A stretch of DNA of 64,000 nucleotides from Sipunculus nudus (taxonomy: Eukaryota; Annelida; Sipuncula; Golfingiida; Sipunculidae): the NCBI GenBank assembly GCA_026874595.1, contig CM049308.1, forward strand, positions 96,396,624 through 96,460,623, given 5' to 3'. The notes below the pieces were generated by a model. The model ran no database searches and was not told where the DNA came from. It saw only the letters and a program-made list of their open reading frames with translations. This document shows positions 29,826 through 63,450 of the stretch, piece after piece. A program made the position numbers and the translations under genes. How positions within the stretch are numbered: position 1 is the first letter of the stretch; every line of letters starts with the position of its first letter.

Positions 29826-29958
29826 CATCATGTCAAGACTAATGGCTGATTTGGAGCGCAAAAATCCTTCAGCTGCTAAGAAGAGGCGTGAGCAAAACCG
29901 AGAAGCAGCAGCACGATGTCGTAACAAGAAAAAAGAGCATGAGACTGACCTGAGAAAG
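29826..29958 (+). CDS. bZIP transcription factor, exon with basic region (Fos/ATF3/JDP2 type)
   Basis: The exon follows an acceptor TGTCTTTACAG (AG 29824-29825) and ends at a donor AAAG/GTATATG (GT 29959-29960). ATG at 29830 has A at -3 and gives 43 codons up to the donor. The frame is also open back to the acceptor, so an upstream coding exon is possible. Residues 17-36 are a textbook bZIP basic region: KKRREQNREAAARCRNKKKE, with the NxxAAxxCR signature that contacts DNA in AP-1 and ATF proteins. The intron falls in phase 0 after DLRK, at the start of the zipper, the position used in Fos-type genes. The product should dimerise with Jun/ATF-like partners and bind AP-1 or CRE sites in the nucleus. 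ATF3, JDP2 and Fos are the closest types; BATF fits less well. No symbol is assigned. Confidence 0.85.
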
Positions 29959-30101
29959 GTATATGATGTTAGCTGCCTTGAGAAAGATATATGTAGATAG
30001 TTGAAGTGCCCAGAGAAAGGTATGTGAAGTTAGATGCCCTTAGAGAGGTTTGTGTAGTTGGATGCCCTTAGAGAGGTATGTGTAGTTGGATGCCCTTAGA
30101 G

Positions 30102-31462
30102 CAGGGTTGGGGTAATTGTAATGTGTAATTGTAATTACCTATAATTAATTGACAGTTGTCTGTCTGCCTGTCAGGTTTTCGTTTCTGTGCGATAACTTTC
30201 CTAAATATTATCCAATTTCATCCAAATTTGAGTCAGTGATTGCTCTCATGCATTCCTTGTTTTGGGATTGGTTTTGGAGTGTCTGGCTTCTGTCTGTCTG
30301 TCTGTCACTTTGTCTGTCAATCTGTCAGGTTTTCGTTTCTGTAGGATAACTTTCCTAAATATTATCTGATTTCATTCAAATTTTGGTCAGACATTGCTCT
30401 CAGGCAAACCTTGGTTGGGATTAGTTTTGGAGTGTCTGGCTTCTGTCTGTCTGTCTGTCTGTCACGTTGTCTGTCCATCCGTCAGGTTTTCGATTCTGTA
30501 GGATAACTTTCCTAAATATTATCTGATTTCATTCAAATTTTGGTCAGACATTGCTCTCAGGCAAACCTTGGTTGGGATTAGTTTTGGAGTGTCTGGCTTT
30601 TGTGTGTCTGTCTGTCACTTTGTCTGTCCTGCTGTCAGGTTTTTGTTTCCCTGCTATAACATTCCTAAATGTTATCTGATGTCATTCAAATTTTGGCCAG
30701 TGATTGCTTTCATGCTTTCCTTGGTTTGGATTTGTTTTGAGGTGTCTAGCTAATGTCTGTCTGTCTGTCACTTTGTCTCTCTGTCGGTTTGTCAGGTTTT
30801 CATTTCTGTAGGATAACTTTCCTAAACATTATCTGATTTCATTCAAAATTCAGTAGGATTACTGTATAGGATGAAGGTAGTCGATAAAAGGTTTTTCCAT
30901 CATCAGAGGTTTGAACCAACAATTATTTACACATGGGCTCTAATTGGCACATGCCAGGGTTATCAAGAAGCAAGAAATTTTGTCTGATAAAGGAAAATAT
31001 GTGATAAAAGAATATTAGATGAAATTTTTTGCCCTTTTTTTACTTCAAGATAATATGTTTAAAATATAATTTACCCATATGTGCTTTCACTTAAGATGTT
31101 TCTATTTCGTGTCAAAAAATAATTCAGCAAATGTTTCAATACACACAATGTCCATATATGATGATGACAGCCAGTTTTGCCTTTCCATAAGAGAAAATTG
31201 TAGATGATATGTGCAGTTTTTCCTTTTATAAGTTTAATCCATTGGCTTTTCTACCATGAATGATACTTTACCTGAACCATGTCTCTGTATATTATAATTT
31301 TTATAAAGTAATTGAAAGTAATTAAATACTTTTCAAATGTAATTGTAATTTAATCATTACTTTGTAAAAATAAAGTAAGTTGTAACTGTAATTGTGAATG
31401 GGGCTTTTGGAAGTAATTGTAATTGTAATGATTACTTTCCAATGTAATTGGCCCCTACCCTG
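30102..31462. mobile_element. hAT-like non-autonomous element in the bZIP intron
   Basis: The ends are inverted: CAGGGTTGGGGTAATTGTAA at the left and, in reverse complement, CAGGGTAGGGGCCAATTACA at the right. The flanking 8-bp repeat is CCTTAGAG (30094-30101) against CCTTTGAG (31463-31470), 7 of 8 identical. CAGGG ends with an 8-bp duplication are typical of hAT. AATTGTAATT-rich subterminal zones are present. The centre has about five copies of a roughly 150-bp unit with GTCTGTCTGTC and CTTTCCTAAATATTATCTGA (30150-30850). No transposase is seen. Removing it with one 8-bp copy restores a normal 28-bp spacing in the junction array. Confidence 0.8.
30150..30860. repeat. 150-bp tandem repeat with GTCTGTC runs inside the hAT-like element
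   Basis: About five units sharing GTCTGTCTGTCAC, GTCAGGTTTTCGTTTCTG, GATAACTTTCCTAAA and TCATTCAAATTTTGG. Open frames at 30149-30349 and 30568-30753 arise from the repeat and have no domain. Confidence 0.85.
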
Positions 31463-31706
31463 CCTTTGAGAGGTGTGTGTATTTGGATGCCCTTACTGAG
31501 AGAGGTATGTATAGTTAGAGTGCCTGGAAAAGAGATGTACAGTTAGAGTGCCCAGAGAAAGATATGTGAAGTAAGATGCCCTAAGAGAGGTGTGTGTAGT
31601 GAGAGTGCCTAGAGAAAGGGATGTGTAATTACAGTGTCTCTAGAAAGATGTGTAATTAGAATGTCCTGAGAAAGGTATGTGCAGTTAGAGTGCCCTGAGG
31701 TATTTA

Positions 31707-32221
31707 AGCAGGGACTTCATGCACAGGATGTTTTATTGTTGGGCTGATGTAGGAGTGTATAATAGCAGGCAGTTGGGAACATTCTCTCTGACACATTTTC
31801 TTTATGGTTCAAGTTGTCTTTAATATAATTTGTTGACAGTTGAATAAATTTAAAATCAGTACCAAAGGTTTTCATGTTAAGTCTACATTATTTGATCAGA
31901 ACATTACAATTTTCAATTGCATATAATCTGCCATTTAATTCATCATAATTCATTGTGTGGCCATGTTATACAAGAGAAAGCCACCTAGTACTATTAGTAG
32001 TTTACCAGCTAATCATAAATAGATACTACAGGCTTACAGCCAGTATTCTAAATAAGACACACCAAAATGTATATTTGAGTGTTGTAGGATTGTTTTTGCT
32101 AGTGTTGTAAATGTACTGTTCACCCTTCCACTTGTAAATACTTAACCTAGATCATATTGTGATAAGCAAACCTTGAGAATTGTGTGATTGAGTTTGTACC
32201 TCTGGTGTCCCTGGTCTGGAT
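31707..32221. other. remaining bZIP intron
   Basis: About 500 bp of intron between the donor-derived and acceptor-derived arrays. No exon, element or RNA gene is recognised. Confidence 0.5.
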
Positions 32222-32640
32222 CTTGTTCTTATTCTACATAACTTTTTTTTCAAAAGAACCACCAGCTGTAGGACTCTTGTTCTTATTCTACATTCCTTTT
32301 TTCAAAGAAAACACCAGCTGTAGGACTCGTGTACTTATCATACCTTACTTTTTTCCTGAAGAATCACCAGCTGTGGGAATCCTGTATTTATCATACCTTA
32401 CTTTTTTCCAGAAGAGCCACCAGCTGTAGGACTCCTGTATTTATCATACCTTACTTTTTTCCAGAAGAGCCACCAGCTGTAGGACTCCTGTACTTATCAT
32501 ACATTACTTTTTTTCCTGAAGAATCACCAGCTGTAGGAATCCTGTTCTTATCATACCTTACTTTTTCCAGAAGAACCACTAGCTGTAGGACTCGTGTGCT
32601 TACTTTTTAAACTTTTTTTTTTCAGAAGAACCACCAGCTG
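32222..32640 (+). repeat. tandem array of the bZIP 3' splice junction (53-bp unit)
   Basis: Seven copies with a 51-55 bp period precede the genuine acceptor. Each repeats a pyrimidine tract, the acceptor position and the first 15 nt of the exon (AAGAACCACCAGCTG), then diverges to a tail like TAGGACTCCTGTATTTATCA. Junctions fall after 32253, 32304, 32358, 32411, 32464, 32518, 32570 and the real 32625. AG is intact at 32410-32411, 32463-32464 and 32569-32570; the other four read CAA, CA or CTG. Every decoy exon would meet an in-frame TAG within six codons, whereas the real exon reads CAG there. Confidence 0.85.
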
Positions 32641-33420
32641 CAGACAGAGATCACAGAGAGGAAGAACAGAATCCGACACATTTCCAGACAAAAGAAAGAT
32701 TTGTTAGACCTCCTGACCTATCATTTTGAAACATGTCCCTTCACCACCAGAGATCAAATCGCTGCTTTGAGAGGGTTCAAAGAGGGTGGAAACAAGGAGA
32801 ATGAAGTTGTGGTGTCTGCTCTTGTAACAGCCCCCACTGAGGAAGGAGTCTGTTGTCCTGTGAGAGCTGAGGACAGTCCAAGTGAACAGTGCACACTTGT
32901 CAATCAAATGTTACACATGAAATCAAATAAAAAAGAATGGGTCAACTTTAATACTGAGGCAGAATCTGAAGAAGCAACTGCAAATCTCAACAATGAACTC
33001 CAGTACAGAGATCAACAGGGTTGTGTTGATAGAGGAGTGACAGAAAACATTGTCCTAAGCAAAGAACCTGAAGGCTGTGCCCCACAGTCTCCCCCAGAAA
33101 CAGGCGCCGAGTCCGACGGCAGTAAACCCAGGAGATACCGATTACTGTATATACCCGACAAGAACGAACTGGTTGTGATTGACCAGTGTTTACTTGATGG
33201 TTCACCAGGTGTTCTAGGCAGCACAGCAAGAGAAACAGAAGTCAAAAGTACCAGTGCATCAGTGACACCCAGCAACAGTCAGCCAGTGGCGCCCCCTGTA
33301 GCATTGCACACTACTATGGTTGCTCCCCAAGATGCATCTTCTGGGCAGAGGCAGGATCCAATGCTGACAACGATGGATTTTGGAATTGACATTATGAGAA
33401 ATATGGCTGGCAGTGCATAA
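32626..33420 (+). CDS. bZIP transcription factor, exon with leucine zipper and C-terminus
   Basis: The acceptor TTTTTTTTTCAG ends at 32625 and the exon continues in phase 0 from the basic-region exon. The joined product is about 307 residues if the ATG at 29830 is the start. The first part holds the zipper: Leu (in DLRK, previous exon), Leu (HQL), Arg, Ile and Leu at heptad spacing, then KDLLDLLTYHFETC. This aligns with the conserved zipper end of Fos/ATF3/JDP2, where a His and a Cys follow (HRPTC/HRPAC type). The Arg at the third heptad position is unusual. The rest, about 220 residues, is acidic and Ser/Pro-rich with no known domain; RRYRLLYIPDKNELVVIDQC is the most ordered-looking piece. 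The stop TAA is at 33418-33420. Confidence 0.85.
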   Translation, partial: KNHQLQTEITERKNRIRHISRQKKDLLDLLTYHFETCPFTTRDQIAALRGFKEGGNKENEVVVSALVTAPTEEGVCCPVRAEDSPSEQCTLVNQMLHMKSNKKEWVNFNTEAESEEATANLNNELQYRDQQGCVDRGVTENIVLSKEPEGCAPQSPPETGAESDGSKPRRYRLLYIPDKNELVVIDQCLLDGSPGVLGSTARETEVKSTSASVTPSNSQPVAPPVALHTTMVAPQDASSGQRQDPMLTTMDFGIDIMRNMAGSA

Positions 33421-33929
33421 GTACCATCATGTAAATAAGCCGTGCCTTGTGTTTGTCTAACATCAGTCACCTCACTTGTATTATACCATTGCATTTATAT
33501 CTATTTATATTTACACAGATGTTGTTAAGGACATCATTAACAAAGATGGTCTTAAATGAGCTGGAAATCAGCAGAGAGGACCAACACATCCGGAAATGCT
33601 GTCAAGAATAAGTTAAAGCTAACATGGTATAGGTACACTAGTACACATTAACTGATCTTCATATACATGAGTCTGACTGAGACGAGCATGTTCTACAACA
33701 CATACATATTCACATCACCATCATAAACATAGTCATAATTTTTCCATAAAACTCTGTGTAATATCCAGAATTTACTGTGTTTTTTTTAAAAATAAATAGG
33801 AATAAATTTGAGATTTTCTTGTTTCTTTCCATGTAACGTCAGCTGAATTCACTCATGCTCACTCTCTAAAAGCCGTATGAACTATATGTATATATACATG
33901 TATATTTAGTACAATGACGAGGTATTTTA
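33421..33929 (+). other. bZIP 3' untranslated region and downstream spacer
   Basis: The 3' UTR probably runs from the stop codon to about 33820. After the poly(A) signals come about 110 bp of unremarkable sequence before a Helitron-like family B element. Confidence 0.55.
33791..33806 (+). terminator. bZIP polyadenylation signals
   Basis: Two canonical AATAAA hexamers at 33791-33796 and 33801-33806, about 370 bp after the stop codon. A T-rich stretch follows (TTTTCTTGTTTCTTTCC), as expected of a cleavage region. Confidence 0.65.
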
Positions 33930-35170
33930 TTGGCGAACCTGTGAGCTTATGCGATGGTATGGCGTCGTCCGGCGTCTGTCGTCTGCACATTAACCCATAC
34001 TATCTTGAAAACGGCAAGGGTTAGCATCACAAAATTTTAAGCAAAAAATTAGTCATCTAAAAAATACTATAGAATATTATTTTTTGGCTAATTGCATTTT
34101 CTTAGATTTTTTAGGGGAAAAGCAAAAAAAACTTAAGAAATCTTCTTCTCCAAACTTCAGCCAAATTGTCCAATATTTCACAAAAATTATTTTTGGAACA
34201 ATCTCTCTCAAGTTTGTTCAAATGGTTTAAGTTCAGTGATTTTAGGCCGAGTTACAGGAAGTTGAACTTAGTCATCTGTCCAAAAAAAAGCATACTAAAA
34301 TTACAATCTTAGAAAAGGCTGGAGCTATCATCAAATTTTTTGCCAATGTTGGTCACATGAGTCATATCTGAAATTGAGATATTATTGGCGCCACCTGCAT
34401 CAGCTTTTATTGTACAGGGGTCATCAGTGCCCGTATCATACTGACAGTTACAAAAAACTTCTTCTCTGAAACCATGTGGCCAAATTGTTTAATATCGCAC
34501 AGAAATGTTCTAGGGTAGTGCATTCTGAAGTTTGTTCAATTGGTCTCAGTTCAGTGACTTGCTGCTGAGTTATGGGAAGCTGAATTTAGTCATATTCCAT
34601 AACAGCCTATTTTAGCTCAGTGGCTACAAAGATCTCAAAAACCACTGGGCCAGATTCTTAAATCTCACACATTAATTATCCATAGATGTTGATTATTCAA
34701 GTTTGTTCAAATGGTTTTGGTTCAGTGATTTTTGGCCGAGTTAGCCAATTTGCTATATTTTCCCATATGGGTTATAAACCTGCAAAACGTTTTTTGACAG
34801 GCGCCACTGAGGCCAATTCGTTTAATATTTTACAAGAATATTCCCCTGAATAAATCTTATAATAATTGCCTTTTTGGTTCCAAAGAATGAATTTTGGCTG
34901 AATTATAAAGATTGAATTGAGTCATTTTACCATATATGTTAGCTGTGTGAAGCAGGTACATCTAGCCTGGCACCAGTCTCAGCATCTGTTACATCATGCC
35001 TCTAGACATTTAGATTTCAGGTTATCTATGGTTATTATTGACAAGAATGTTTTTAAAAGCTTTTAAAAAATGTAGATTTATGATTTTAGATATTCCTCAT
35101 GCCAGGCAATGTTTACAATCACAGGTATACAGCTCTCTGTGGGTATATAAAGATGGCTGTACATGGATTA
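33930..35170 (+). mobile_element. Helitron-like family B element, copy 2 (interrupted)
   Basis: Starts TGGCGAACCTGTGAGCTTATGC and is collinear with copies at 7717, 39983 and 43435. It includes the AAAACGGCAAGGGTTAGCATC and ATTGGCGCCACCTGCATC regions. It breaks at GTACATGGATTAT, and its continuation (AATTGGTATCCATACTCAA, 39892-39982) lies beyond a family A element. The intact counterpart near 44640-44760 shows the joined order. Confidence 0.65.
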
Positions 35171-35743
35171 TTAGCTCAGCTTACTGTAAGTCAACTGAGG
35201 TATAAGAATGGCGCTTTGTCTGTCGTCCGTCCGGCCGTCCGTTAGCAGGGCACAAATCGTAACTACTGGTCCTAGAAATTTCTTAGTGAAAATCCAAGGA
35301 GGTCAATTAACAATCTCCTTGGAAACCTGAAATTAGGTCACTGTGACCTATATCCTCTGAGCTATGGGGCTTGAAAGTACCCCCAGAATAATAAAAAATA
35401 TAATACAAAACCTCCAATGTCTTGATAATTAATGTATGGATTGTCATGAATCTTGCCTTGAATATTGACCATTACTAGTTTTGTCAGTTCCCGAAAAGTG
35501 GTGGCGCCACCTGTATTTTTTGTTATTTTAACAAATATTTTTCAATTTTTTTACTATAAAATGACAACAATCATGTCAGTTTCTCAGCTGTAATTACATC
35601 TAGTGTCCCAAAACCTTGCGTGTTTATTGATCACAAGTGGATTCCATACAGTTATCACCCTGTCTGTCTGTCTGTTTGTCTCTCCGTCTGTCCATCTGTC
35701 CATCCACACAAATTTGTTTCCAGATGATTACTCAAGGTTATAT

Positions 35744-38165
35744 TAGCTCAGCTGACTTTCAGTCATGCTGGGCTATAGCGATGGGTCTTTGTCCGTCGTC
35801 CTTCCGTCTGTCCGTCCGGCCGGCTGTCCGGCCGGCCGTCCGTTAGCAGGGCTCAAATCGTAACCGTAGGGGCTAGGGCCATGAACCCTATGCAGTCTTA
35901 GAGGTTATTAAAAGATCTCCTTGCAAACCTGAAATTAGGTCACTGCGACCTATATTCTCGAAGTTATGGGGTGTGTTTGCACCCCCCAGAAATAACTCTT
36001 TGAGACAAAATTTTCATCCCAAACCTTCCATCTTTCACATACAGCTCACCCACCAACAGGGGAAGAACCATAATTTTTTTAGGTCAAAGGTCAAGGTCAC
36101 AGGAGCCTCTTCTTTGAAAAGCCTGTGGATGCATTTTAAGCCGACCCTTTCATCTCAATTCTTTGATTTTTCACATATAGCTCACCTGCTAAGTTGGAGA
36201 AGAATCCTATAGATTTTGAGGTCACAAGGTCAAAGGTCAGGGTCACAGGACCCACTTCTTTGAAAAGGTTGTGGACACATTTCAAGCTAGACTTTTCATT
36301 CCAAACCTTCCAGCACTGATATCGCTTCTCTGCCAACAGGGGAAAAGACCTGTTGATTTTGAGGTCAAAGGTCAAGTTCACAGCACCCACTTCTTGCGTG
36401 GAGTCATTTTCAGGCCAACATTTCAATCTGTACCTTCAATCTGTCATATATGGCTTACCTACCAATAAGGGAAGAAGCCTATTGATGTTGAGGTCAAAAA
36501 GTCAAAGGTCAAGGTCACAATATTTAATTGTTCTAAATGCTTGTGAGCATATTTAAAGTGTAACTGTTCAACCCAAACCTTCAGTCTTTCACATATGCCA
36601 CATCTATGCATCACTCAGTTTGACTCAAACTTCATATTTATGGGTCTTTTTGCTTGAATAAATAACTTATTGATTTTGGGGTCAGCAGGTTAAAGGTTGC
36701 AGGTCAAAGTTATTCACCCATTGGTTGCCAAGTAATTACACCAGATTTAAGTGGTTAGTAGTTACCCATCATTTAGAAAGAATCCATTTGATATATGGGC
36801 AAAAGGCCAAGGTCATAGGTCAGGGATGTTCACAATTACTTATTTTATAGACCATCTCTATTTTTCTTGTATATATAACCATCCCACTCCAGCTGGTACA
36901 TCTCCCTGTGTGGCTGTAATTGTGAGTGACACTGGTGACATATGACTCCCTTTTGTATCAGCCTATTAAGTGATAAGGCTCAGTGATAAGTACCTCGTTA
37001 CTTCATAACAAAAACACTGTTGTCAGAATGCTTCAGCCAGGCATTAAGACTATGAGAGTATAGTATTAAGGTTTAGCTACTGATTTATAAGATGATGGGA
37101 ACATTTTGCAGTTTATTTTATTGAATCCTAGCAATAAACTTAGTTTCCTAGATATCTGAATATTTTAATATATATCACAACATATAAAAGCAAGTGTTTG
37201 TTCTCATAATATGTGGATGTGTACCTTGATTTAGGATGGCATTTTGTTTTATTTCAAGACTCTTAGTCATGCTTTCTGCATTTCTTTTCTTTCAGGTTTG
37301 GCAGTTTACCTACCCTGCTGACCCCATTGAAAAGCAGAGTGATAATAAAAAATATTGGACTTACACTTTTTACAATTGCATATCTATAAATCTGATATGA
37401 GGGCCTGGACATGCCTTTTGAATTATTTTGGGCATTCATTACTGGATAATTTGCCCAAGTTTGGTCTCTTATTGGAGAATGTGGGATATCAAATGTCATA
37501 CTTGTCAGAAATCCATAATGTCTGCCAGTTAGCCACCTTAGAAATTCTTTCTTCAGTGCAGTTTCAGTAATTTTTCTTTAATGTTTGGTCCGATTTAGAG
37601 AATGTTTGTTGTCTGATTTCAGACTTGTCAGAAGTCCAATATGGCCACCAGGCAACCATCTTTTAATTCCTTTTGATCATATTATCTCAAGAACAGTTAA
37701 AGTGAATGCAGTTGGATGTATATTTATGTAATCTTGAAAAGGATTGGGTCAAATATTTCTGAATAAATATTACCATCATTTATAAAAGTGCAGTACAGTT
37801 GGCTTGTATTGAATAAATATTCATACAGAAGCACCTGTTTCTCAATAATTCTTGCATGTATTTCCTTGATTTTTGCTATATATTTTGATCTTATATTTTA
37901 CCTTTGTGGTGTTCCTTTGAGACTGACAGGTTTCAAGCAAGCTGTTGGAATAGTTCCTGATAGCTTAACAATCATGCATTTTCCTCAGACTATCAATTCA
38001 CTGTGTTTTAACCAGACATAGGTGATATATATGTCTGTTGTCATATAAAATTTTCAACAAATTGGCAAATTGGTTCTTCAAAATTTGACTGGAAGTTGTG
38101 AATCTCAGTCCATGATGTCACAGGTCATGCTTGGCAGCTGAGCGTCATGACCCATGGGTCACTTG
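35744..38165 (+). mobile_element. Helitron-like (HINE-type) family A element, copy 2
   Basis: Starts TAGCTCAGCTGACTTTCAG and ends GTCATGACCCATGGGTCACT then TG. It matches copy 1 (8687-11115) along its whole length with small indels. It contains the GTCCGTC/GGCCGGCC microsatellite, the AGGTCA-rich units and the AT-rich 3' half. There is no coding capacity. The palindrome GACCCATGGGTC beside the 3' end is the expected terminal hairpin. Confidence 0.75.
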
Positions 38166-39870
38166 TTGACACATGGATTTCAAACTTGACTTACCTATGG
38201 CCCACTACTAAAGAAAGATACTAAATGATTTTGGGGTCACGAGGTCAAAGGTCAAGGTCACAGGACACTTATTTAAAAAGATTATGGCTGCATTTTAAGC
38301 CAAGCTTTTCATCCCAAACTTTCCATTTTGCGCATTTAGCTGTCTTACCACTATGGAGAGAGCATAAATGCCTTTCGGGTCACATGGTCGAAGGTCAAGG
38401 TCACAGGGGCCATCTGTTCACAAATTAGTTTCTAGATGATAACTCCAGTTTAGTTTGACTTTTTGGTTTCAGACTTAACTTATATATGACTCACCACTAA
38501 AGTAAGAACCGTGTCGATTTTGGGCTCCAAAGGTCAAGGTCACAGGACTCATTTCTTGAAAAAGAAATTTTAAGCCAAACTTTTCATCCCAAACCTTCCA
38601 TCTTCAAGATATTGCTTACCTGCCAATAGGGGAAGATTCTGTTCAGTTTTTGGGTCATGAGGTCAAAGGTCAAGGTCGCAGTACCCACTTATTTAGAAAG
38701 ATTGTGGATGCATTTTAAGCCAAACTTTTCATCCCAAACTTTCCATTTTGCGCATTTAGCTGTCTTACCACTATGGGGAGAGCATAAATGCCTTTGGGGT
38801 CACATGGTCAAAGGTCAAGGTCACAGTCACAGGGGCCCATCTGTTCACATTTTTGTTTCTGGATCATAACTCCAGTTTGAATTGACATATTGGTTTCAGT
38901 TTTGACTTCTATATGACCCACCAATAATGTAAGAACCCTTTTGATTATGGGGTCATAAGGCCAAAGGTCAAGGTCACAGGACCAACTTCTTAAAAGAATG
39001 CATATGCATTTGAAGCCAAACTTTTCATCCCAAACCTTCCATCTTCAGGATATTGCTAACCTGCCAATAGGGGAAGATTCTGTTCAGTTTTGGGGTCATG
39101 AGGTGAAAGTTAAAGGTCACAGTACCCACTTATTTAGAAAGATTTTGGATGCATTTTTGGCCAAACTTTTCATCCCAAACCTTCCATCTTACACATATAG
39201 CTGAGCGGCCAATAGGGGAAGAACCTGATTGATTTGGGGGTCACAAGGTCAAAAGTCATGGTCACAGGGCCCATCTGTTAACATATTTGTTTCTGGATGA
39301 TAACTTCATTTTGAATTGACATATTGGTTTCAATTTTGATTTATATATGACCCACCAATAATCCACCAACACCTTCCAGATGTTGCTCACCTGCCAATAG
39401 TGGAAGTAACTTATGGATTTTGGGGTCACAAGGTGAAAGGTCAAGGTCATGGGGCCATCAATCCACATATTAGTTTCCAGATGATAACACCAGTTTGGTT
39501 TGAAATAATGTTTCAAACTTGACATATATGGCCCACCACTTAAGTAAGAACTGTTGATTCTGGGGTCATGAGATTAAAGGTCAAGATCACAGGACCCACT
39601 ACTTTTGAAAGATTGTGGATGCATTTTAAGCCAAACTTTTCATCTCAATCCTTCCATCATCAACATGTGGTGCACCTGCCAATAGGGGAAGTTTCCTTTT
39701 GATTTTGGGGTCAAAGGTTAAGGTCACACGGCCCATCCATTCACCGATTAATTTACGGATGATAACTCCAGTTTGGGTAGACAGGTTGGCTTCAAACTGA
39801 TCACAGGACCAATATTTTGGAAAACCTCCTAAACATATATCCTTATAGACAAATGCAGCTGAGCGTCGAG
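38166..39870. repeat. AGGTCA-rich tandem repeat, about 200-bp units
   Basis: About eight units sharing GGTCAAAGGTCAAGGTCACA, GATGCATTTTAAGCCAAAC, TTTTCATCCCAAACCTTCCA and TGCCAATAGGGGAAGA. Many copies hold exact AGGTCA-A-AGGTCA and TCAAGGTCA words, for example at 38242-38260 and 38660-38672. The open frames here are short and repeat-derived. Confidence 0.8.
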
Positions 39871-39982
39871 ACCCACGGGTCCCTATTAAATAATTGGTAT
39901 CCATACTCAATTCAAGATTTTGCCATCAGTGAGATGTATCTGTATTATAATTTTGCATTCAATATGCATCTGTTGTAATTTT

Positions 39983-42433: not shown

Positions 42434-42474
42434 TTTTGATCACGTATATGGTACAGGTCAATCTGAGCAGATAC

Positions 42475-42887: not shown

Positions 42888-42895
42888 CCAGATAT

Positions 42896-51409: not shown

Positions 51410-51800
51410 TTCAGATTTTATTTGTTCATATGTATGCGTGAGAGGACGAATCCTATTTAAGCATTGGTTATGAACTGGAGAGATAACTTGACCTTGAATA
51501 GTTCCGTTTTTCGCGAACAAAACACAAAACATTTAATATCTAACGAAGGCCACAGGGATCGGTCTGAAAATAAAGTCGACCGAAGATGATGGACAGCTTT
51601 ATATTGTATGAGGGAACGGTACTGCCACCTTATTATTGCACTTTAATAACCCCATCACTGCAACATCACATAACTTTTAGAAATAAAATAAACAGAGTTT
51701 TAACTTATTAACAGATGGCTTCCATCTTATGCATACGCAAAGATATGGGTCACAGGATAAAGCTTATTTAAATGGGGTCTAGACTTTAACTATGAGAGTG
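51410..51800. other. no recognisable feature
   Basis: About 390 bp between two repeat copies, with no domain or RNA gene. Confidence 0.45.
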
Positions 51801-52258
51801 GTGTTGGAAATCACAACTAGCAACGCTCAGCTGAATCTGTCTTTAAGGATAATTTTATGATTTTTTTTTAAATGGGAGTCCTGTGATCAAGTTTGAAGCC
51901 AGTCTGTCCACCCAAACTTGAGTTATTATCCATAAACTAATTTGTTAATGGATGAGCCCTGTGGCCTTGACCTTTGACCTCGTGACCAAAAAATAAAAAA
52001 ATATCTTCCTCTTTTAGCAGGTGAGCCACATGTGGAAGATGGATAGTTAGGGGTGAAGTTTGGCTTAAAATGCATCCACAATTTGATAGTGGCCAGTGAC
52101 CTGGACCTTTGACCTCATGACCACAAAATCAGTAGAATTTTTGCTTCGGTGGTGGGCCATATAAAAGTCAGGTTTGAAACAAATATATGTCAAACCAAAC
52201 TGGAGTTATCACCGTAAACGAATTTGACGGACATACGGAAGGACGGACAGACTGTAAG
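51801..52258 (-). mobile_element. family A-type fragment, minus strand
   Basis: Reverse complement of the AGGTCA-rich part of family A: ACGCTCAGCTGA near 51823, GGCCTTGACCTTTGACCTCG near 51962, and CGGAAGGACGGACAGAC near 52237, which is the inverted GTCCGTC tract. Both ends are decayed. Confidence 0.65.
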
Positions 52259-52640
52259 GTACTAAGGGCCAGTGTATTTAACTGCAATTCTCACTCTCTG
52301 TATTTCATCATGATTATATTATATGTAAGGTGCAGGTGTTTAAGTTAATTTGGACTTTGTGTATTCAAGTGTCAGAGCTGAGTTGCCGGGTATTAATATA
52401 ATGAATGTTATTGCTTAGCCTTGATTACATGGCACCTCTATTCAGTCTAATCGCACTTACATTCAGCTGCTGTGCACACCTTTCTTTAATTGCATCTGTT
52501 GTGACATGTCAGGGAAATCTCATTGTGTATGAATCTTGCTTGAAGACATGCTGTGGGTGTAGAGTCAGTTGGAAACTGGGGGCCAAGCTCTGAGCATGGG
52601 CTTGGCATTCCCTCTCTTATATAGTTAAATTAAAGAATAT
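52259..52640. other. no recognisable feature
   Basis: About 380 bp with one short open frame (52405-52593) that lacks any domain. Confidence 0.4.
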
Positions 52641-53880
52641 TTTACATCAACTCAGAGACTTGTAAGTTTGTCACCAATGCATCCTGGACCAGCTTATGAT
52701 CTCTGCAAGACGAGGGACAGGTTGATTACTAAAGGGCACCCGCTTATTCAAGCAAGGCCTTAATAAACACAAGGTTTCAGGGCAAAAGATGAAACCACAG
52801 TTGAGAATCTGATAGTATCAATTTAATTTGGCAGTCTCAAAATAAAGGGGAAAATGCATTAAATATAGAAAAAATACAGGTGGCGCCACCAATCGTCTGG
52901 AACTGAAGAAACAAGTCATAATCAATAAACATACCAGGTTTCGGGACACTAGATGGAAGCACAGCTGAGTTATGACATGATTGCTGTCATTTGACGGTCT
53001 CAAAAAATGGCAAATTCACCAACGAGTTCGAAAAGCAGTGACCTCGACCGCCATCTTCAATGTCGTATCAACCGAAATAATGAAGTGTTGCATATTTTTC
53101 TTCTCAAATGTTGTACACCTATTGTTCCAACAAAATTCTTTGATGTGTATGAAACTGGTAACCATGACCTTGACCTCAAGGTCAAATCTGTGGAAATATA
53201 GTTTTTATGTGACCTCCCCCCCCCCCCCCCCCCATAATGTTTGAATATTTCATACATATTTTTCCTTCATTTGATACACTTTTAGTTTCAACCAACCTAG
53301 GACGAGTCAGAAAACTAATGACCTTGATCTTAACTTTCAAGGTCAAATTTGCGTAAATATAGGATCATTTAGAACCCCATAACTCTTGACGTACTGCATA
53401 TGTTCCTGTCAAATATGATACACAATTTGATATTTTTCTCCAGTGAAGTTGTCCGGCAAATTTGAAAAGGTGTGACCTTGATCTCTATCTTAAAGATCTG
53501 CGGAAATGCAGAATTTGGTAACCTTATTAGTTTGAAGTACTGTCTATTTGACCATTCTTGGTTAATATTTTCACTAAAATTAACTCAAGAATAATTCTTC
53601 TTATTGCCCTCGGTGGTTCCGCTTGATTATTTCTTGGCTGAATTAAAGGACGCTGAACTTGGTCATTTTACCTTATTTGTTAGCTATGTGCAGCTGTAAC
53701 ATCTGATATTGCAGGAATATATCTACATTATTACACCATTCTAAGAAATATTTGGATTTTCAGGAATACCTGGTTAATAGTTACCACATTTTCTAGAACA
53801 AAAAGTTCTTATAATGATAGAACTGTAAGACATGAATAGTAAATGATTTTGGGGTCGGTGCCGGATTAAGGCAAATGGAG
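52641..53880 (-). mobile_element. Helitron-like family fragments, minus strand
   Basis: Contains inverted forms of words from 35.4-35.6 kb and family B: GGTGGCGCCACC at 52880, TCGGGACACTAGATGGAAGC, and repeated GTGACCTTGACC-type phrases about every 160 bp (53040, 53165, 53310, 53475). A C18 run lies at 53216-53233. No gene. Confidence 0.5.
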
Positions 53881-55505
53881 GCCCTGATATACTAACCCAG
53901 TTGGGCCCCCTCTGATCATGAAAAAATGTGACTCTGGTCCTGCACTGGTCTTATGTTTAAACATTTTTTTTCGCTAAAAACTTATGAAATAAATAAATGA
54001 AAATTTTTAATTTTGTTAATATGAAGCAAAGGCCCCAATAGAATGTGAGACCATTTGCTGTGGCCCGCTCAGTTCATTTGTTTTTGTGGCTCTTCGAGGG
54101 AACGTGAGGCTGACTGTCCAGGCAGTAAAAAATAATTGGTGACCATACCTAAGTTATGTATATGTAGAGGTACGTTTATTTCATGAAAAAGACGTGTCTG
54201 TATTAGGATTTTACATTCATTTGGCAATACCTCTTATTCATAATTTGTTGATAAAAATGTGAATAAAATACCAAATTAAAAGACGCGTAAAAATTAGTGT
54301 AAAGCACTGTACTTTTCCGTAGACCAGACATTAATATTCCACGATTTTCACTTTTTCAGGCTTTCGGTAGGGTTTAGGATATTCCATATACTCTCAATAG
54401 ATACCCCCTCCCCCAAAACTATAAGTGGACTCACCCATTCACAGCCAGTGGGTCAGAGAGGGGATCGTATCACTTGATTAGCTAGCGGGCCTCGGGTGCA
54501 ACCAACCCTCCATATTTTTTGTAAAGCGTACACCCCTTGCATGCCCTCCATATCTTTAGTAACGCCTACACCCTATGCATTGACTGGCAGTATACTGTTT
54601 TGGCATAATACTAATAAGCATTCTAAATTCGGGCAGACCTTTCAGCCATTTAGTGATGTTAAATTAAATTCCTATGTTGTTTTACATTTTCTGTGGTAAA
54701 AATCTTACATGGGTACGTTCGATTTCCGCGGGTCTCGTCATACAGTGAACCATACAGAGTATATCCTTTATTGTATTTATTATTTAATGCTTGTGAAATC
54801 TCTACAGTTTAAGGAGTCCGGGAACATCGAACGAGCGGAAGTTCTTGTTCATCATTGGCAGATCATATAAAGGTCTCATATTTTCCAAATATCAATTTGT
54901 GATATACGACAAACATAAACGTCTCTGTTTATTTTATCAATATGATATCCAACCTTTGCCTTGCGCCGCAGCAGTCAGTGATGATGTTTATAAGACGCCA
55001 GTGAGGATAAATATATGTAGTTTAAACGAATGTTCACCAAGGTTATATTTTCGCGATGATTTCCCTTTCGCAAATAACGCGAATTTGACAACGTCGCAAT
55101 ATCCTTAGTAAAACAATTACCTCTTCGCGGTCGCGGATAACATAACAAGGCCCACTCAAACCCAAAGCTATGTAGGATGCGGCAATCCCAGAAGCTTGAG
55201 TTCAGATATACACTATTAATATCAGAAAGTGAGGATGAATTGAATATACTTATGTATTTTAAGTTTAAAAAACTATGAGGAACTATGAGGAATTTGCACA
55301 TGCGATTTCAAATGAGGTTTTAGCCTTTGTTTCGGAGGGTTTAAATGAAGGTTGAACGAGCTTTGTTTAAAGGTGTCCCCTATTCGGCCATTCCATGGTC
55401 TATTAATGTGTTTGGGTTATTGTATGATGATACTATGAATTTATTTATTCAGTTACATTATTTACGATACATGTATACAATATATACCGCATATCACAGT
55501 ACATA

Positions 55506-55508
<3 letters not shown>
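53881..55508. other. no recognisable gene
   Basis: About 1.6 kb. Open frames at 54845-55108 (+) and 54975-55301 (-) overlap antisense and have no domain. Short repeats of a CCTCCATATYTTT-type word occur at 54508-54555. Nothing else can be supported. Confidence 0.4.

Positions 55509-55545
<37 letters not shown>
55509..55545. repeat. (TA)n microsatellite
   Basis: About 18 TA units, followed by AT-rich degenerate sequence to about 55650. Confidence 0.95.
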
Positions 55546-55548
<3 letters not shown>

Positions 55549-55649
55549 GTACATGAGGAATTCGAAAATATTACAAAATAAGTAAAATAACTAAATAAAT
55601 AAAAATATATATCACAATACATATCAAACAATATCTAAATAAAATATAT

Positions 55650-56816
55650 AAATCACATTACATCAATTGAGCACCATGCAACATTGTACCTGTAAACAAA
55701 ATGAAAATGGAGCACTAAAAAGTCTTCCCAATAAAAGACTTATTTCCATTGTTGACTTCACTAAGATCACAAATTACAAGACGGCGGCTGCACCTGGTTT
55801 CTTCACAACAGCTAAGAACCATCACGTCAACCCAAAAGTCAGCAATAACCTTCCTAAAATTATTTAAATAGTGTATACACAATTTTCTTTTGAAAACGTT
55901 TCTACTATTTTCTGTTTTGATGGCCAGTGGTAGATCATTCCACAGTTTAACACTCCAGTTTTTAAAAGTCTTACAGCCTTGTGTTTTAACATCTAGAACA
56001 TTAAATGATAAATTAGACTTTAGAGTTCTGTAATTATGACTAACAGGAACTATATCACACAAATAAGAAGGTGCTTCATTATGATGAATATTGAACATGA
56101 GGTTTAGAGTTAGATAGTCTACTCTATGCGAGACATCAAGCCATTTTATCTTTTTAAATTCTGAAACTCTTAAATGCTGTCTAGGAGTATAATTAAAGAA
56201 TTATCGAATAATCTTGTTTTGAGCTGTGTAACCTATTCTTAAGTTTCTTAAAGAGTCCTCTGTACCAAGAATTACAGGCATAATCAAAGTTTGAATGTAG
56301 CAAGGCTGAGCATAACATTGTCTTTTCTTTGATGCCCAGGTACATAAGGCTATACCTTTCCTATAAAGAAATTTAGCATTAACTTTACTAAATATTGATG
56401 TACCCATAGTAAAACCTGACATGTTTTGGTCCAAATTGACCCCTTAATACTTTACAGTTTCCTTGGGTTTAGCCATATACTAAGAGATTCTAATTCTACT
56501 GACAACACATTTTCGATTTTCATTGGATCCGGTCCGCTAACCACTAGTGCAGAATCATCAGCATAAAGGAAAAGTTCACTGCACATTTGGTAGCTTATAT
56601 CATATCATATAGAAAAAAGAAGAGAGCCTAAAAGTGATCCCTGAGGAACCTCACAAGTAACTTTGACTAAAAAAGACTTTGCTGCATTATTACCTAAATC
56701 AACAAATTGTTTTCTGTTTGAGAGATACGATTTAAACCAAGAAACAGATTGTTCATTAAGACTAATTGCATTCAACTTTGTACAAAACAGGAGATAGCTA
56801 AATGGACCAAGGACAT
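55650..56816 (-). pseudogene. LINE reverse transcriptase fragment, minus strand
   Basis: On the minus strand, in order from 56816 down: SLNEQSVSWFKSYLSNRKQF (RT block with conserved WFKSYLS), a GVPQGS-like EVPQGSLLGSLLF, the catalytic box LFLYADDSALVV (YADD at 56554-56565), and the C-terminal APSYLCDIVPVSHNYRTLKS and LWNDLPLAIKTE within 55715-56098. This is the usual order of a CR1/L2-like RT. The YADD box is intact, but stops and frameshifts lie between blocks, so it is dead. The 3' tail points left to the AT-rich microsatellite zone. The 5' edge is cut by a G18 run at 56817. Confidence 0.85.
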
Positions 56817-56834
56817 GGGGGGGGGGGGGGGGGG
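56817..56834. repeat. G18 homopolymer
   Basis: Eighteen consecutive G residues at the junction between two minus-strand LINE fragments. The length in the assembly may be unreliable. Confidence 0.9.
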
Positions 56835-57312
56835 AAGTAAATGTATTTATTGATATTTGGCAGTTAAAATTGCACCTTACAACACAAGTAGGCCTAATGG
56901 TTAAGATAAGATAACTTGAGGTAAGTTTTATTTAAAGTCGGTTTTCTATGGTCAACAAATACAACATAAGCTCACAGAGCTTTTGTCACCGACTACATAC
57001 ATAAGACATGTTATGATAACTAATACATTTGGTATGGTTTTTACACATTTCACTGTAGTATCAGTTCATCATTCATGTGCATAGAATGGTGATACTGATT
57101 TTAAAATAACAGTACAATCATAAAATGATCAAAAGATTGCGATCCAGTTAAAATAGTATACTGGAATAATAAAACCACTGGGGTGTGATAAAGATTAAAA
57201 ATGATTAAGACAATACTTTATACAGAATCTTTTTAAATGTATTGAGTTCTGATCAGGTCATGAGTTCTTCAGGCAGAGAGTTTCACTCTTTCACACCTTG
57301 CAATGATGTTAA
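56835..57312 (-). pseudogene. LINE 3' end remnant, minus strand
   Basis: On the minus strand 57220-57300 reads NSLPEELMT, a stop, then SELNTFKKILYKVLS. This is the LINE C-terminal pattern WNSLPEE...SFK. It is followed by a 3' UTR ending in a TTATCTTATCTTA tail (56902-56920), like the tails at about 11800 and 62140. Only about 100 bp is coding-derived. Confidence 0.6.
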
Positions 57313-57473
57313 AGGGTCATGATACCCCATATTTCTGCGTTTTTATGCTGTAGTAGAAGTTTGTTTTCACTATTTCTTAAATTATAATGTCTATTTGTTT
57401 TGCATAGTCATTCATTTAGATACACGGGGACTTAAAGATATCTTCAATACAATGTTAACAGGCCCGTAGGCTG
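57313..57473. other. short spacer
   Basis: No feature is seen between the LINE remnant and the G/C hairpin. Confidence 0.4.
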
Positions 57474-57519
57474 GGGGGGGGGGGGGGGGGGGGGACGAAC
57501 CCCCCCCCCCCCCCCCCCC
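57474..57519. repeat. G21-ACGAA-C20 inverted homopolymer hairpin
   Basis: Twenty-one G, a 5-nt loop ACGAA and twenty C: a near-perfect palindrome able to form a G/C stem, or a G-quadruplex and i-motif on opposite strands. Confidence 0.9.
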
Positions 57520-59636
57520 GCTGAGCATCTGAGTTCCACCTGACGAATACTAATATGCTATAATCTAGAAAAATTATACAGAACTTTATGTTTAACCATT
57601 TTTGTCCGGTTCCATGCATATCCTCACAGGGAGAGACCATATTTCTGTATAAATATTGTTTATAGCGCCGATAAGCGTCCTCTTTATTTAGCTCTGTCAG
57701 GGATGTAGATTGCAAGTACAGTTCAAAACGTTTAATTTCACCTGAAACAAGCTTTAAATAACCTGTTCACTGCTTGCTTCTGATTATGGTCAAGAACTGG
57801 ATGTTTGTTGCCGTGTGAGAGGGGATAAAGAGAAAATTGTTGATTGCCCCCTCTCATGCAAAGAGGGCAGTAGCACCCTCTTAATTGTTTCCGGGCCAAA
57901 GGTCTATAAGAACACTCTGTCAATAGAGCACAGGAGACATACGTGTCAAGAGTCCAAACCAAGCTTGATTCCATAAGAATAATAAATAAAGGGGAAAAAA
58001 CAAACAAAACATTAAAAATATCATATAGAGATTTATAAATGAGCTTATAGAACTTTTTGATTTGTTGGTGTTGCAGATTAAATGAGGGCCTTGCATATTA
58101 CTTCGTTACTTCAGAAGATATATATGGCTATGACCCACTGTCTGTAGTCGTCCTATCAGCAGTTTGTCTGCACGTTAGATAAGCATGATTTTACATCGTT
58201 ACCTATGGATTTGAAATTTTACATACAGTATGATGTATCAAGTTCTATACCAAGCCGGAAACTAGGTCACTGTGCTTTGTTCCTATGGAAAATTAAACTA
58301 AACCAGTTTGCATTCAAAATCTATTATAACAATTCAAGACTGCCTTATATAAAAAAAGCTTGTATTGTTCTAATTAAGGCACAGAGCTTTTCATTAAATG
58401 TCCGATGTATATGAGGAAAATCATGCCAGTATTGAGTAATTAAAAAAATAAGGGCTGGATCATGTGTTTAGTCGAGAATATTTTTACTCAATGAATATGT
58501 TAACCGCTTAAGCTGGAGCTCAGTTCATCCAGAAAATAACTACAATTAATTTAGATTGAAGTATACACCGGAGATAAGGTCGGAAATTCAATGAATTTTC
58601 GAAGTAATCAACAAATGTAAAATCACTACCATGAATTTTACCTATACTTTGACTATCGCATATTGTTTTCTTGTAATCACTGCTGATTTAATTTTCAAAT
58701 ACCATGACTACATGGATTTATAAGCTATTTGTTCTGAAATTCTAATGCAGTTACCCAAAACAATTAGTCAGGTATGGGAGTTTTCAGGGGGGTAAGACTA
58801 TATTATTTATGAGTAATATAAATCAGGGAACAGGCCACCTCCACAGGATGGCGATTTGGTAAAGATATTTGGCGAAGTGTGCACGTGTGCCCCTTGCCTG
58901 TAGGGACTGATGAATGACATAATTTTCATTTAATATGGCTAATATTAACATGGATTTCATTGACCAAGTCTCTATAAGTTACTTTGATCGTTTATTTTGT
59001 CAGTTTTTAGGCTATATACATTCTAAATTGTTCAGTCTACACATCTACACATTTTGTTTTTATTCGGACCTCGCAGAAATGCCCCGGATCTTAATTGATC
59101 CCCTAAAGTTCCAGCTCCGGCCCAGTTCTGTCCTATATACTGCTTCGTTTGTCAAAGAATTTGAATATAATTCTAGCAGCCTTGCCTGCTAGTCCTTTTT
59201 TTTTAATTTTTGCAAATTTCAAGTATAGCTAGAAACCCCAAACATCGCCCGGTTCATTTCTTTCCAAGAATGTTAATTTACACGTTATCTGCATTGAATG
59301 ATATCAATTCAAGCAACCTCATTTAACTTTCAGTTAACGTGATAGTAACTCGAGTGGACAGCTACCGGAGAATATCAGATGATGGAGGTGTGAGTTTGTC
59401 AATGAATATGGTTGTTTTCTTCTTTTCAAATCTGAAATGAAGTGGATGCCAATGCACTTTTTTGTTTAGTGTACACATATATACAGCCTCTTTATGACCA
59501 TGCATACTTGTTCTGTAGTAGCAGCTTGCGAAACGCTTTGGATGGGACGTTCTGAGTACACACGGCGAGAAAAAGGACAATTCGCTGATAATAGGTTATT
59601 TGGATTGTTTTTATTTCGTTAAAAGAAAACATCGGG
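57520..59636. other. no recognisable gene
   Basis: About 2.1 kb with several short open frames (57738-58007 minus, 58935-59192 plus, 59362-59580 minus), none with a domain. The sequence looks non-repetitive within the window, so distant exons of an unseen gene cannot be excluded. Confidence 0.4.
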
Positions 59637-59674
59637 TATATATATGTACATATATATATATATATATATATATA
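59637..59674. repeat. (TA)n microsatellite
   Basis: TA run with a small interruption (TGTACA) near its left end. Confidence 0.95.
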
Positions 59675-59865
59675 AAGTTTCCACCATCAGTGAAAACGAA
59701 CCCTCCCACTCAGCAGTCAGCCTACGGGCCTGGTTAAGGTTGCACAAATATAACTTCTTTTTCAGTACAATGATCTTCCGCAGTCTCGTCTGGTAGTCAA
59801 GTGCGTCAACAGGCTGGAAATTTTGAGTTTGCCGCATTGAACGGTTTGGCGATTTCGTGTAAGTG

Positions 59866-60028
59866 TCACGTGACTAAGCACCATGGACGGTGTCGGTAAC
59901 TGTGTCACTGGCTACAAGAGTTGGCTATGAAATCAAAAGCAGGTATCAGTAAATTTCCCCGGCCGACTAAGTAGAGGTGTATATATAAAACCATTCTTTC
60001 CTTTGGTGTTGTACTAACAGACAGAGGT
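59866..60028 (+). promoter_or_regulatory. candidate promoter and short first exon of the BTB gene
   Basis: An E-box-like TCACGTGAC lies at 59866-59874 and a clean TATA box TATATAAAA at 59982-59990. About 25-30 bp further on transcription could start near 60012-60018, and a strong donor ACAGAG/GTATGTGA follows (GT at 60027-60028). That would give a very short untranslated first exon spliced to the coding exon at 62477. The link is inferred from strand, distance and lack of another candidate. Confidence 0.4.
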
Positions 60029-62476
60029 ATGTGAGAGATCCTCGAAGGGTGACGTAGATTCGTCCTTTGTGATGTTGTACTGTAGTCTGTGGACTATCAA
60101 GTCACTGCCACTCGCCGTGGATACAGTGGCGAGGCCGGGACAGAGGGGGAGGTGTCAGTGGGCAGCTATAATCTGTCGGCAGAGTGTTATATAATATAGC
60201 TAACTGTTGTATTTGAGTTTGTTTGCCAGGAGAGTATCACAGATGTCCTTGGGGTACTTTGAAATATGTTAATCAGAACTTTAAGTTTAACTTAGTTTAA
60301 GTTAATCCCTGGTGCCTGTCAAGCATCATCTATACTATTTACCTCCAAAATGAATCCTCTAATAAAGTAACTTTATTTTGCATGAATTCTTACATCTGGT
60401 GATGAGGTTCAAAGAAAAAGTAATTCTCCATGACAAAACTGTGAGTTTGCCTGATTATCAGTTAAATTAATTTAAATGATGATAAATTTGTATAATCTTA
60501 ACAAGGTGTCTAGAGCTCCGTACCCAGACACATTGCCCCAGAGCTAAAGGTCCTGACTATTAATCACGTAGTTAAGTGATGAGCTATAAAGTATAAGTTC
60601 ATACATACATCAGCATTATGAGTAATACCCTGTGAAAATTATGGATAACTTTAAAGTTATAGGCCTGTATGCAATTAGAAATGTATTAATAAAGCCCATT
60701 ATATTAATCATTTTTCATCCTAACATGTTGAACTAGGAGTAGGACTAATTATATTTTCATTAAAATCATATATGGACTAGACTTCATCTCAGACCTATAA
60801 ACAATGAACATATATTTATAAAGGTATTTTGTTTTAATATTAATTTGTGAGTACATGGGTCTGTGTATTCTCCCAGAAAGTCCTACATAAAGTGCTTTTA
60901 TTAAATAAAATAAAATTCATATTTATTACTAAATGCCAGAACAATAGCAATGTTCTGGTAGGTCCGTCAGTTGGTGCTGGAGAAATAGCTCCAATAGATG
61001 TGTCCGGCAGTGTCAGTGCGCATGGCTCATAGGAAGTGTCTGAACTTTAGCCTGTATGATCAGTATCTGGGTCTTATCTTTATCAGCCTTATCTTTATTT
61101 TCTACTATTCCTCTGAACCAAAATATTTAGGTAAAAATAAAATTGTAAAGCAATAGCCAATACAAATGAAACAAGAAAATCACATTTTACTCCCATTTTC
61201 CACTCAATGTCCATTAATTTGCTACTCCTTTTTGACAGTGACACGATATTGTGGCTCCGCAATGCACAAGGCCCCATGTGCTGTGTTTATGTTGACACCT
61301 GTGATTGCCAGGGCAGTATTTTGGCAGGTACAGATTTATTTTAAAGGGAAAAAGCCATTTTTCATGTTAATTCAACATGCTTTATAGGTGATTGGGCCCC
61401 TTTAACATATTTTAACTACAAAGCAGTATATTTAATAATCTTAAATTTTGTATTGTAAATGCATGTACATTTATCGGTTACAGTATATAAGCATTTTCTT
61501 TCTTTTCTCTATTTCTTTCTCTTCCTTCTTTCTTTCACTCTTTCTTTCTCTCTCATGCTGTCTCTCTTTCTGTCTCATAAGCTGCAGTAAATCAGTAATC
61601 ACCACATACCACATGCCTCGCTTTAAAAATCAGTGTGAAACACAATCATAGACTTTATTGGAAATTTATTTAGAAATTGTTGATTGTTTGATTTTTAGGT
61701 ATCTGTATATCATCAAACTTGGAAGCGGGAGGGGAATGTAAATTATTGTATGAAGAAGGCCCAAGTGCGGCTGTACTTTTTAATGAGTCTTTACGGGTTA
61801 GGTAGGTGCTGCTGAAATAATATAGAGCAGTTATAGAGAGTGTCTTGACACGTTCTGTCACTGTGTGGGGAGGAAGCATCAGTGCTGAGGAATGGAATTT
61901 ACTGGATTTACCAAGTTATTCAAAAAGGACTTTAACCAGCATATACTTATCAGCAATCCGGTAACTAAACTCATCCCTTGCGGAAAAACATATCTTTAGA
62001 TGACTATCTTTTGTATACAATTTTATGAATTTATTTTCTTCTTTCAATGTATTCTTTAACAGCAAACTAATCAAGACATATACTATTGTATGTAATATTT
62101 TTATTATGTAATAATATGTATATATAGCAAATCTTATCTTATCATGTCAATCAGTTTATCATGTAAATAACATAGATACCCCATCCATTAAAATGGTATG
62201 CTCCCCTTAGAAGTTACTCTATCAGATGTGTGGGTTTCTCTGTCATTTTCCTCTGCTATCCAACCTGTAAAACGGACGCGTAATTGTTTTTCACAGTATT
62301 TACAAAAAGGTGGACAGATATTTTGTTTACATAATATCATTTTGTTTTTCAGTAACAACTTCATTTATAAAACTGACAATAAATTGGAAATTCAATGACA
62401 AACAAGGGAATTATTTAAAAGCTATTTCTTTTGTGCAAAGCAGGCATGCACTATGACTGTATTTTGTTTATTTCAG
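60029..62476 (+). other. probable first intron of the BTB gene
   Basis: About 2.4 kb between the candidate first exon and the acceptor at 62475-62476. It contains a LINE 3' remnant at about 61890-62145 and no recognised exon. The frames at 60847-61032 and 61448-61651 lack domains. Confidence 0.4.
61890..62145 (+). mobile_element. LINE 3' end remnant
   Basis: A C-terminal-like WN-rich start (near 61893) is followed by a 3' UTR ending GTATATATAGCAAATCTTAT then CTTATC. This is the same tail type as the LINEs at 11798 and 56902. Only the tail similarity is firm. Confidence 0.45.
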
Positions 62477-62708
62477 ATCATTTAATTTTGTTTTCGATTT
62501 ACTTGGTGGTCCATCATTGAGGTGTAAATGTACCAGGTAAACGGAACAAAGCGTGTGCGAACCAGCTCCAACATGTCCGACACAGAGGATGGACCATCCA
62601 AGTTAATCCATGTGGATGAAAACACGGACCATGGCATGAAAGTGCTGCGGGGGCTGAACCAGCTCATGCGTGATAAAGTGCTCTGTGATGTCACGTTAAT
62701 CGCTGAAG
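62477..62708 (+). CDS. BTB (probably kelch-like) protein, first coding exon
   Basis: An acceptor TTTGTTTATTTCAG ends at 62476. The first ATG is at 62528, with an alternative start at 62573 (MSDTEDGPSK). The exon encodes HGMKVLRGLNQLMRDKVLCD then VTLIAEG, the opening of a BTB/POZ domain as in KLHL proteins: helix, first strand with the conserved LCDVTL, and an EGRE-type turn. It stops where an intron is plausible, at GAAG/GTAGGG (GT 62709-62710, phase 1); a second option is CAG/GTGTTT (GT 62726-62727). The rest of the BTB domain (the AHR...LAA...YF part) and any BACK and Kelch repeats must lie beyond the window. KLHL proteins serve as Cullin-3 adaptors; that role is family knowledge only. Confidence 0.75.
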
Positions 62709-63450
62709 GTAGGGAACTTCATCAGGTGTTTGTTCATAATAAGGTGATCTGTGATGTCACATTAATTGCTGGAGGTAAGGAACTTCATCAGAAGTTTGTT
62801 CATAATAAGGTGATCTGTGATGTCACATTAATTGCTGGAGGTAGGGAACTTCATCAGAAGTTTGTTCATAATAAGGTGATCTGTGATGTCACATTAATTG
62901 CTGGAGGTAGGGAACTTCATCAGAGGTTTGTTCATAATAAGGTGATCTGTGATGTCACATTAATTGCTGGAGGTAGGGAACTTCATCAGAAGTTTGTTCA
63001 TAATAAGATGATCTGTGATGTCACATTAATTGCTGGAGGTAGGGAACTTCATCAGAAGTTTGTTCATAATAAGGTGATCTGTGATGTCACATTAATTGCT
63101 GGAGGTAGGGAACTTCATCAGAAGTTTGTTCATAATAAGGTGATCTGTGATGTCACATTAATTGCTGGAGGTAGGGAACTTCATCAGAAGTTTGTTCATA
63201 AAAAGGTGATCTTTGATGTCACATTAATTGCTGGAGGTAGGGAACTTCATCAGAAGTTTGTTCATAATAAGGTGCTCTCTGATATCACATTAATTGCTGG
63301 AGGTAGGAAACTATATAAGAAATTCTTTTGTGCACTGATGTCTCATTAATTGTCAGAGGTAGGCAACTTGATTAGTTGTATGTGCTAAAGTTATTTGGGA
63401 TGTCAATGTCATATTAATTACTGAAGGTTGGCAGCTATCAAATTGATGGG
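62679..63450 (+). repeat. tandem array of the BTB exon end and donor (66-bp unit)
   Basis: The exon end GTGATGTCACGTTAATCGC with TGAAG/GTAGGGAAC is followed by nine 66-bp copies with consensus GATGTCACATTAATTGCTGG then AG/GTAGGGAACTTCATCAG, and two degraded copies to about 63450. Because 66 is divisible by three and no stop occurs, the array stays open and produces an apparent 273-residue protein (62528-63349) repeating VICDVTLIAGGRELHQKFVH. Real BTB domains never repeat their first strand in this way, so the array is more likely intronic. Nearly every copy preserves the donor. Confidence 0.85.

Follow-up and report, generated by a model that had tools for sequence, protein, structure and literature searches.

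Minisatellite-like tandem arrays across splice junctions at a bZIP and a BTB locus of Sipunculus nudus and in a genome sample of junctions

Results

Tandem arrays at three coding junctions of a bZIP and a BTB gene

The window, that is, the whole stretch of DNA analysed, comprises 64,000 nucleotides of Sipunculus nudus contig CM049308.1 (positions 96,396,624 to 96,460,623, forward strand) and contains bZIP and BTB coding exons with the following associated features.

29826..29958, + strand: bZIP coding exon, spliced in frame to 32626, with matches to Pfam bZIP and Fos chains
29946..30101 (29949-30109 by repeat detection), + strand: opening section of the donor array, with four 28-bp copies beyond the true donor
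30102..31462, + strand: insertion of 1,361 bp splitting the bZIP donor array, with ends CAGGGTTGGGG / CCCCTACCCTG
31463..31699 (31496-31699 by repeat detection), + strand: remainder of the donor array past the insertion, five recognisable copies
32244..32645 (32244-32640 by repeat detection), + strand: acceptor array, with seven 53-bp copies ahead of the true acceptor
32626..33420, + strand: last bZIP coding exon, through the stop codon
62528..62708, + strand: BTB coding exon, open from ATG to donor, joining the exon at window-equivalent 67032 to give a BTB domain
62673..63312, + strand: BTB donor array of nine 66-bp units with GT retained and a tenth, degenerate one; the reading frame is open throughout

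A tandem unit that spans the junction is repeated intron-ward at three sites: the donor at 29958 and the acceptor of the exon starting at 32626, both in the bZIP gene, and the BTB donor at 62708. These arrays, reported in a preliminary description of the locus, were confirmed by repeat detection, by frame and domain support, and by a junction scan for an intron-side tandem copy of a stretch reaching 8 nt or more into both exon and intron, in which the self-similarity scores were 30 for the bZIP donor, 22-25 for the bZIP acceptor and 108 for the BTB donor. The units measure 28 (28-29), 53 and 66 bp and are mutually unrelated in sequence, with an exon share of the repeated stretch of about 13, 18 and 36 nt, respectively. 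In the bZIP donor array the end of the exon and the beginning of the intron recur in nine recognisable copies, four before and five after the insertion, while the BTB donor array was detected as 9.7 copies with a 96% match. As described earlier, an intact exon-proximal site is seen together with many intron decoys. The claim that every recognisable coding-exon junction is affected was too broad, as arrays are present at three of the four coding junctions of the window, or three of five when the next BTB exon is counted; none was found at the bZIP exon's own acceptor (29826) or at the acceptor of BTB exon 2 (window-equivalent 67032). Elsewhere in the window lie two big minisatellite arrays, one at 17177-22669 (36-bp units, about 150 copies) and one at 23720-27958 (64-bp units, 66 copies). 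Among the 67 window ORFs that are 80 aa or longer, ten were compared with Pfam and matched no family.

Support for the three predicted junctions comes from the spliced reading frame and the domain match. The two bZIP exons join in frame (...DLRK followed by KNHQLQTEI...), and the spliced protein matched Fos chains (E 0.0003), scored above the cut-off for Pfam bZIP_2 and just missed that for bZIP_1 (profile positions 7-60, E 4e-6, 27.3 bits, cut-off 27.6). The BTB junction needed a check of its own because the frame of its array is open and the array hence possibly coding; joining the BTB exon to one that lies some 4.3 kb downstream, beyond the window, gave a BTB domain that covers positions 1-107 of the 110 in the profile (E 5e-28).

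The interruption of the bZIP donor array was absent from the preliminary description. The insertion, which we take to be hAT-like, contains 157-bp tandem repeats and is flanked by the near-identical 8-mers CCTTAGAG / CCTTTGAG (7/8 alike), a possible 8-bp target duplication. Its end pair was absent from the window repeat search at the settings used.

To determine how specific the arrays are, we compared them with shuffled controls, as had been suggested earlier, and with the assembly. None of 990 dinucleotide-shuffled flanks from the first exon sample passed, the top score being 13. An assembly-wide search (1.43 Gb) with part of the 53-bp and part of the 66-bp array matched their own loci only, and an origin of these two arrays from a dispersed repeat was rejected, in a search that passes over very common words. 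Because the units are unrelated and locus-private, the junction arrays represent separate events, as the preliminary description had held in stating that they do not form one repeat family.

Junction-spanning arrays in a genome sample

To evaluate the phenomenon beyond the window, we sampled exon matches of kinesin, Cpn60, myosin and mitochondrial-carrier domains across the assembly. The 160 regions (236,213 bases) yielded 243 exon matches (118 kinesin, 47 Cpn60, 47 myosin and 31 carrier) and 486 junctions, predicted from splice matrices and frame rather than from transcripts, with 88 exon pairs whose phase was chosen jointly. Rows were dropped for kinesin (2/126), Cpn60 (15/63), myosin (4/75) and the mitochondrial carrier (57/103), those of Cpn60 comprising intronless or bacterial-type copies and two stop-bearing matches; 7/127 and 39/79 merged regions were left out, and 150 BTB matches were excluded from the junction sample.

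At score 20, junction-spanning copies were found at 17 of the 486 junctions (5 donors and 12 acceptors), that is, at about 3% or roughly 1 in 30, so that arrays of this kind do occur beyond the window, in a sample of four families. Sixteen of the 17 were credible by eye; the other, L055, is a mis-called acceptor that is still counted in the 17, in the 74/90 copies given below and among the 11 junction arrays of the strict count. Clear cases include L050 (31 bp, 13 upstream copies), L061 (72 bp), L102 (52 bp, donors) and L138 (38 bp, 10 copies). A first pass gave 8/330 at score 20 and the second pass 10 on those same 330, the two counts resting on different splice matrices.

Three groups of matches stood out in the course of the sampling. 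Nine equal-scoring intronless Cpn60 frames of 547 aa lie on small contigs (C61, C62, C66, C72, C73, C75, C89 twice, and C99) and may represent bacterial DNA that entered the assembly from a symbiont or as contamination. Eight equal-scoring, stop-bearing BTB fragments lie on C4, C8, C12, C13, C15 and C17. Those on C8, C12, C13 and C15 are at most 230 kb from the start of their contig and the C4 fragments are close to the contig end, so this is perhaps a subtelomeric repeat. At G000:C2:44849337-44852248, four adjoining matches cover one stretch of the myosin head profile (about 109-153), a cluster that looks like alternative exons.

Junctions compared with intron positions

The preliminary description proposed that junctions seed the arrays. 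Such a preference could arise if some property of the exon edge (a composition step, polypyrimidine slippage or co-transcriptional structures) started duplications, which we consider unlikely. Coverage argues against it: arrays covered 17/486 junctions and 20/483 positions 100 nt into the intron (Fisher P 0.62), so that in this sample scan they are no more frequent at junctions than in the intron interior. Between 10 and 150 nt into the intron, coverage at score 20 was 3.5-4.9%, while within the exon the counts were 12/486, 1/486 and 0/482 at 10, 40 and 60 nt, respectively. Arrays placed regardless of junctions, yet kept out of exon interiors, would yield this profile.

Since an intron array is counted across all its copies and a junction only once, a second null with one count per array was applied. 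With all 486 sites and the strict setting, 10-11 junction arrays were observed against 4.2-4.4 expected (ratio 2.3-2.5, P 0.005-0.013), while the permissive setting gave 14 against 9.2 (about 1.5 fold, P 0.08-0.09); both favour preferred seeding. When only stronger or phase-paired sites were used, however, the excess dropped to 5 observed for 3.5-3.7 expected (strict) and 6 for 7.7-7.9 (permissive), with ratios of 0.76-1.45 and P values of 0.27-0.80, although this filter is perhaps too harsh because it also drops junctions that are credible by eye, such as L061. The three arrays at the four coding junctions of the window likewise speak for seeding (P 0.00017 at the sampled rate), in a window that was picked for this feature. 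With array-count ratios spanning 0.76 to 2.52 by setting, an about twofold junction excess is possible but not robust, and a junction-targeted process is not shown. Of the earlier view that one process acted at all three junctions, the part concerning separate, unrelated events stands, and the part concerning junction-specific seeding is not supported by this sample.

Words consisting of three AGGTAAGT in a row were also counted genome-wide, giving 1,146 against 658 for the reversed word, a count that large arrays inflate through overlapping matches. One such locus, G000:C1:1041372-1045843, is a 58-bp array with units that carry a perfect AGGTAAGT donor word, inside which a block of about 2.3 kb is apparently repeated.

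Retention and predicted effect of decoy splice sites

We determined the state of the duplicated splice sites in 90 copies from 20 arrays, including the three of the window (L013 and L128 yielded no ungapped copy and add nothing). The splice dinucleotide GT/AG was intact in 74 of them, compared with 62.9 expected from the other dinucleotides of the same copies, a difference to which we attach no P value because the copies within an array are related by descent. If decoys were harmful, GT/AG would be expected to decay more quickly than the remainder of the unit; it does not, and the decoys are not purged. The bZIP acceptor array showed the opposite trend, AG being kept in 3/7 copies.

Such retention would also be expected if the duplicated sites were in use and the arrays kept for alternative or unproductive splicing. 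Site strength agrees with this at donors, where 21/23 intact decoys scored within 0.5 bit of the true site or better, and all six intact bZIP decoys (3.1-6.6) exceeded the true donor (1.7); all nine intact BTB decoys are, in addition, open and in frame. At acceptors, by contrast, just 7/37 intact decoys equalled the true site on the same criterion, retention of the dinucleotide is near that of the remaining unit, and use of 49 of the 60 intact decoys (13 arrays) would cause a frame shift or a stop. Of the 11 that would cause neither, nine belong to the BTB array, and a general in-frame design of the units was rejected, as just 2/51 intact decoys outside that array are in frame without a stop. 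Lancelet arrays of the same type, moreover, leave splicing undisturbed according to the available parts of PMC3087553, and we regard a role for the duplicated sites as very unlikely. Given that the bZIP decoys outscore the true donor, correct donor choice would have to rest on position beside the exon.

A coding BTB array, in which the exon continues through the repeats and 62708 is no junction, fits the open frame across the array (273 aa from stop to stop) but can hardly be correct and was rejected as far as the sequence allows, since the downstream exon joined at 62708 gives an uninterrupted BTB domain that 22-residue repeats would break.

Discussion

Our preferred reading, to which we assign a probability of about 0.7, is that these arrays are ordinary locus-private minisatellites that happen to straddle junctions and are tolerated. 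Equal coverage of junctions and introns, the unrelated units, the retention of dinucleotides and the lancelet cases with normal splicing count in its favour; the excess under strict one-per-array counting, the three of four junctions in the window and the predicted nature of the junctions count against it. A short tandem duplication would by chance include a segment across a splice junction, sparing the exon and its own splice site, so that a copy of both would land in the intron, and slippage or unequal exchange may then expand the copies intron-ward. In the sample, arrays are spread along introns genome-wide, reach junctions about as often as intron positions and fade out 40-60 nt into the exon. 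Distal decoys would be tolerated, most likely as the exon-adjacent site wins via position or exon definition, and stray transcripts would presumably be removed.

The preliminary description did not recognise the structure as known, yet lancelet 'mirages' had already been described. In the available text of PMC3087553 these are minisatellite-like tandem duplications of exon-intron boundaries, both 5' and 3', of which many copies keep AG/GT, with length instability and with regular splicing undisturbed by RT-PCR. Together with PMC3902484, as far as the available parts of both sources go, they occur in Adh3, the globins BflGb6 and BflGb9 and other genes, with unit lengths that vary between genes (10-72, about 108 and 150-160 bp); the accessible sections of PMC3902484 also compare PGBD5 repeats with mirages and cite troponin C. 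The arrays described here resemble mirages in that the units of all three window arrays consist of an exon end and the adjoining intron, in affecting both boundary types (donors: two in the window and 5 in the sample; acceptors: one and 12), in being unrelated between genes, and in that many, not all, copies keep AG/GT (74/90). They differ in belonging to another animal genome and in reaching up to 13 copies upstream of one acceptor; whereas polymorphism and splicing are known for mirages, the present arrays are known from the sequence of one assembly alone.

A human counterpart is the 31-bp VNTR of CBS (c.1444_1467+7), with a copy number of 16-21 in the available portion of PMC2630376. By these coordinates its unit likewise consists of an exon end and the first 7 intron nt, and its copy number is variable, although it concerns one gene in human. 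Splicing effects of this VNTR were reportedly described by Lievers et al. in 2001. Human duplicated genes carry internal tandem repeats where exon and intron meet, and these change splicing or create new introns (PMC2812944, accessible parts); they too are minisatellites on exon-intron boundaries but, as far as those parts describe them, were found via variation between recent paralogues and are mostly exonic material turned intron. Intron gain through tandem genomic duplication that includes splice signals (PMC4974935, accessible parts) is similar in that the duplicated segment carries those signals, while here a pre-existing intron is enlarged by the array. In the open-licence literature we found no report of junction-spanning minisatellites in molluscs and no genome-wide rate. 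The kind is already known from lancelet mirages and the human CBS VNTR, and what is new is further members and a measured rate.

A bolder reading, in which minisatellites arise about twice as often at exon edges and the duplicated sites persist as some of them are used, seems to us distinctly unlikely. If it were true, many genes would hold a stock of alternative or unproductive sites that could give rise to new introns and isoforms, 'many genes' being an extrapolation from about 3% of junctions.

The intron-matched control shows that striking junction arrays may be expected even without a junction-specific process. Automatic gene models are unreliable at exons that bear such arrays. With arrays at about 1 in 30 sampled junctions, the genome offers natural tests of how a choice is made among near-identical splice sites, and the junction arrays are a possible source of new introns.
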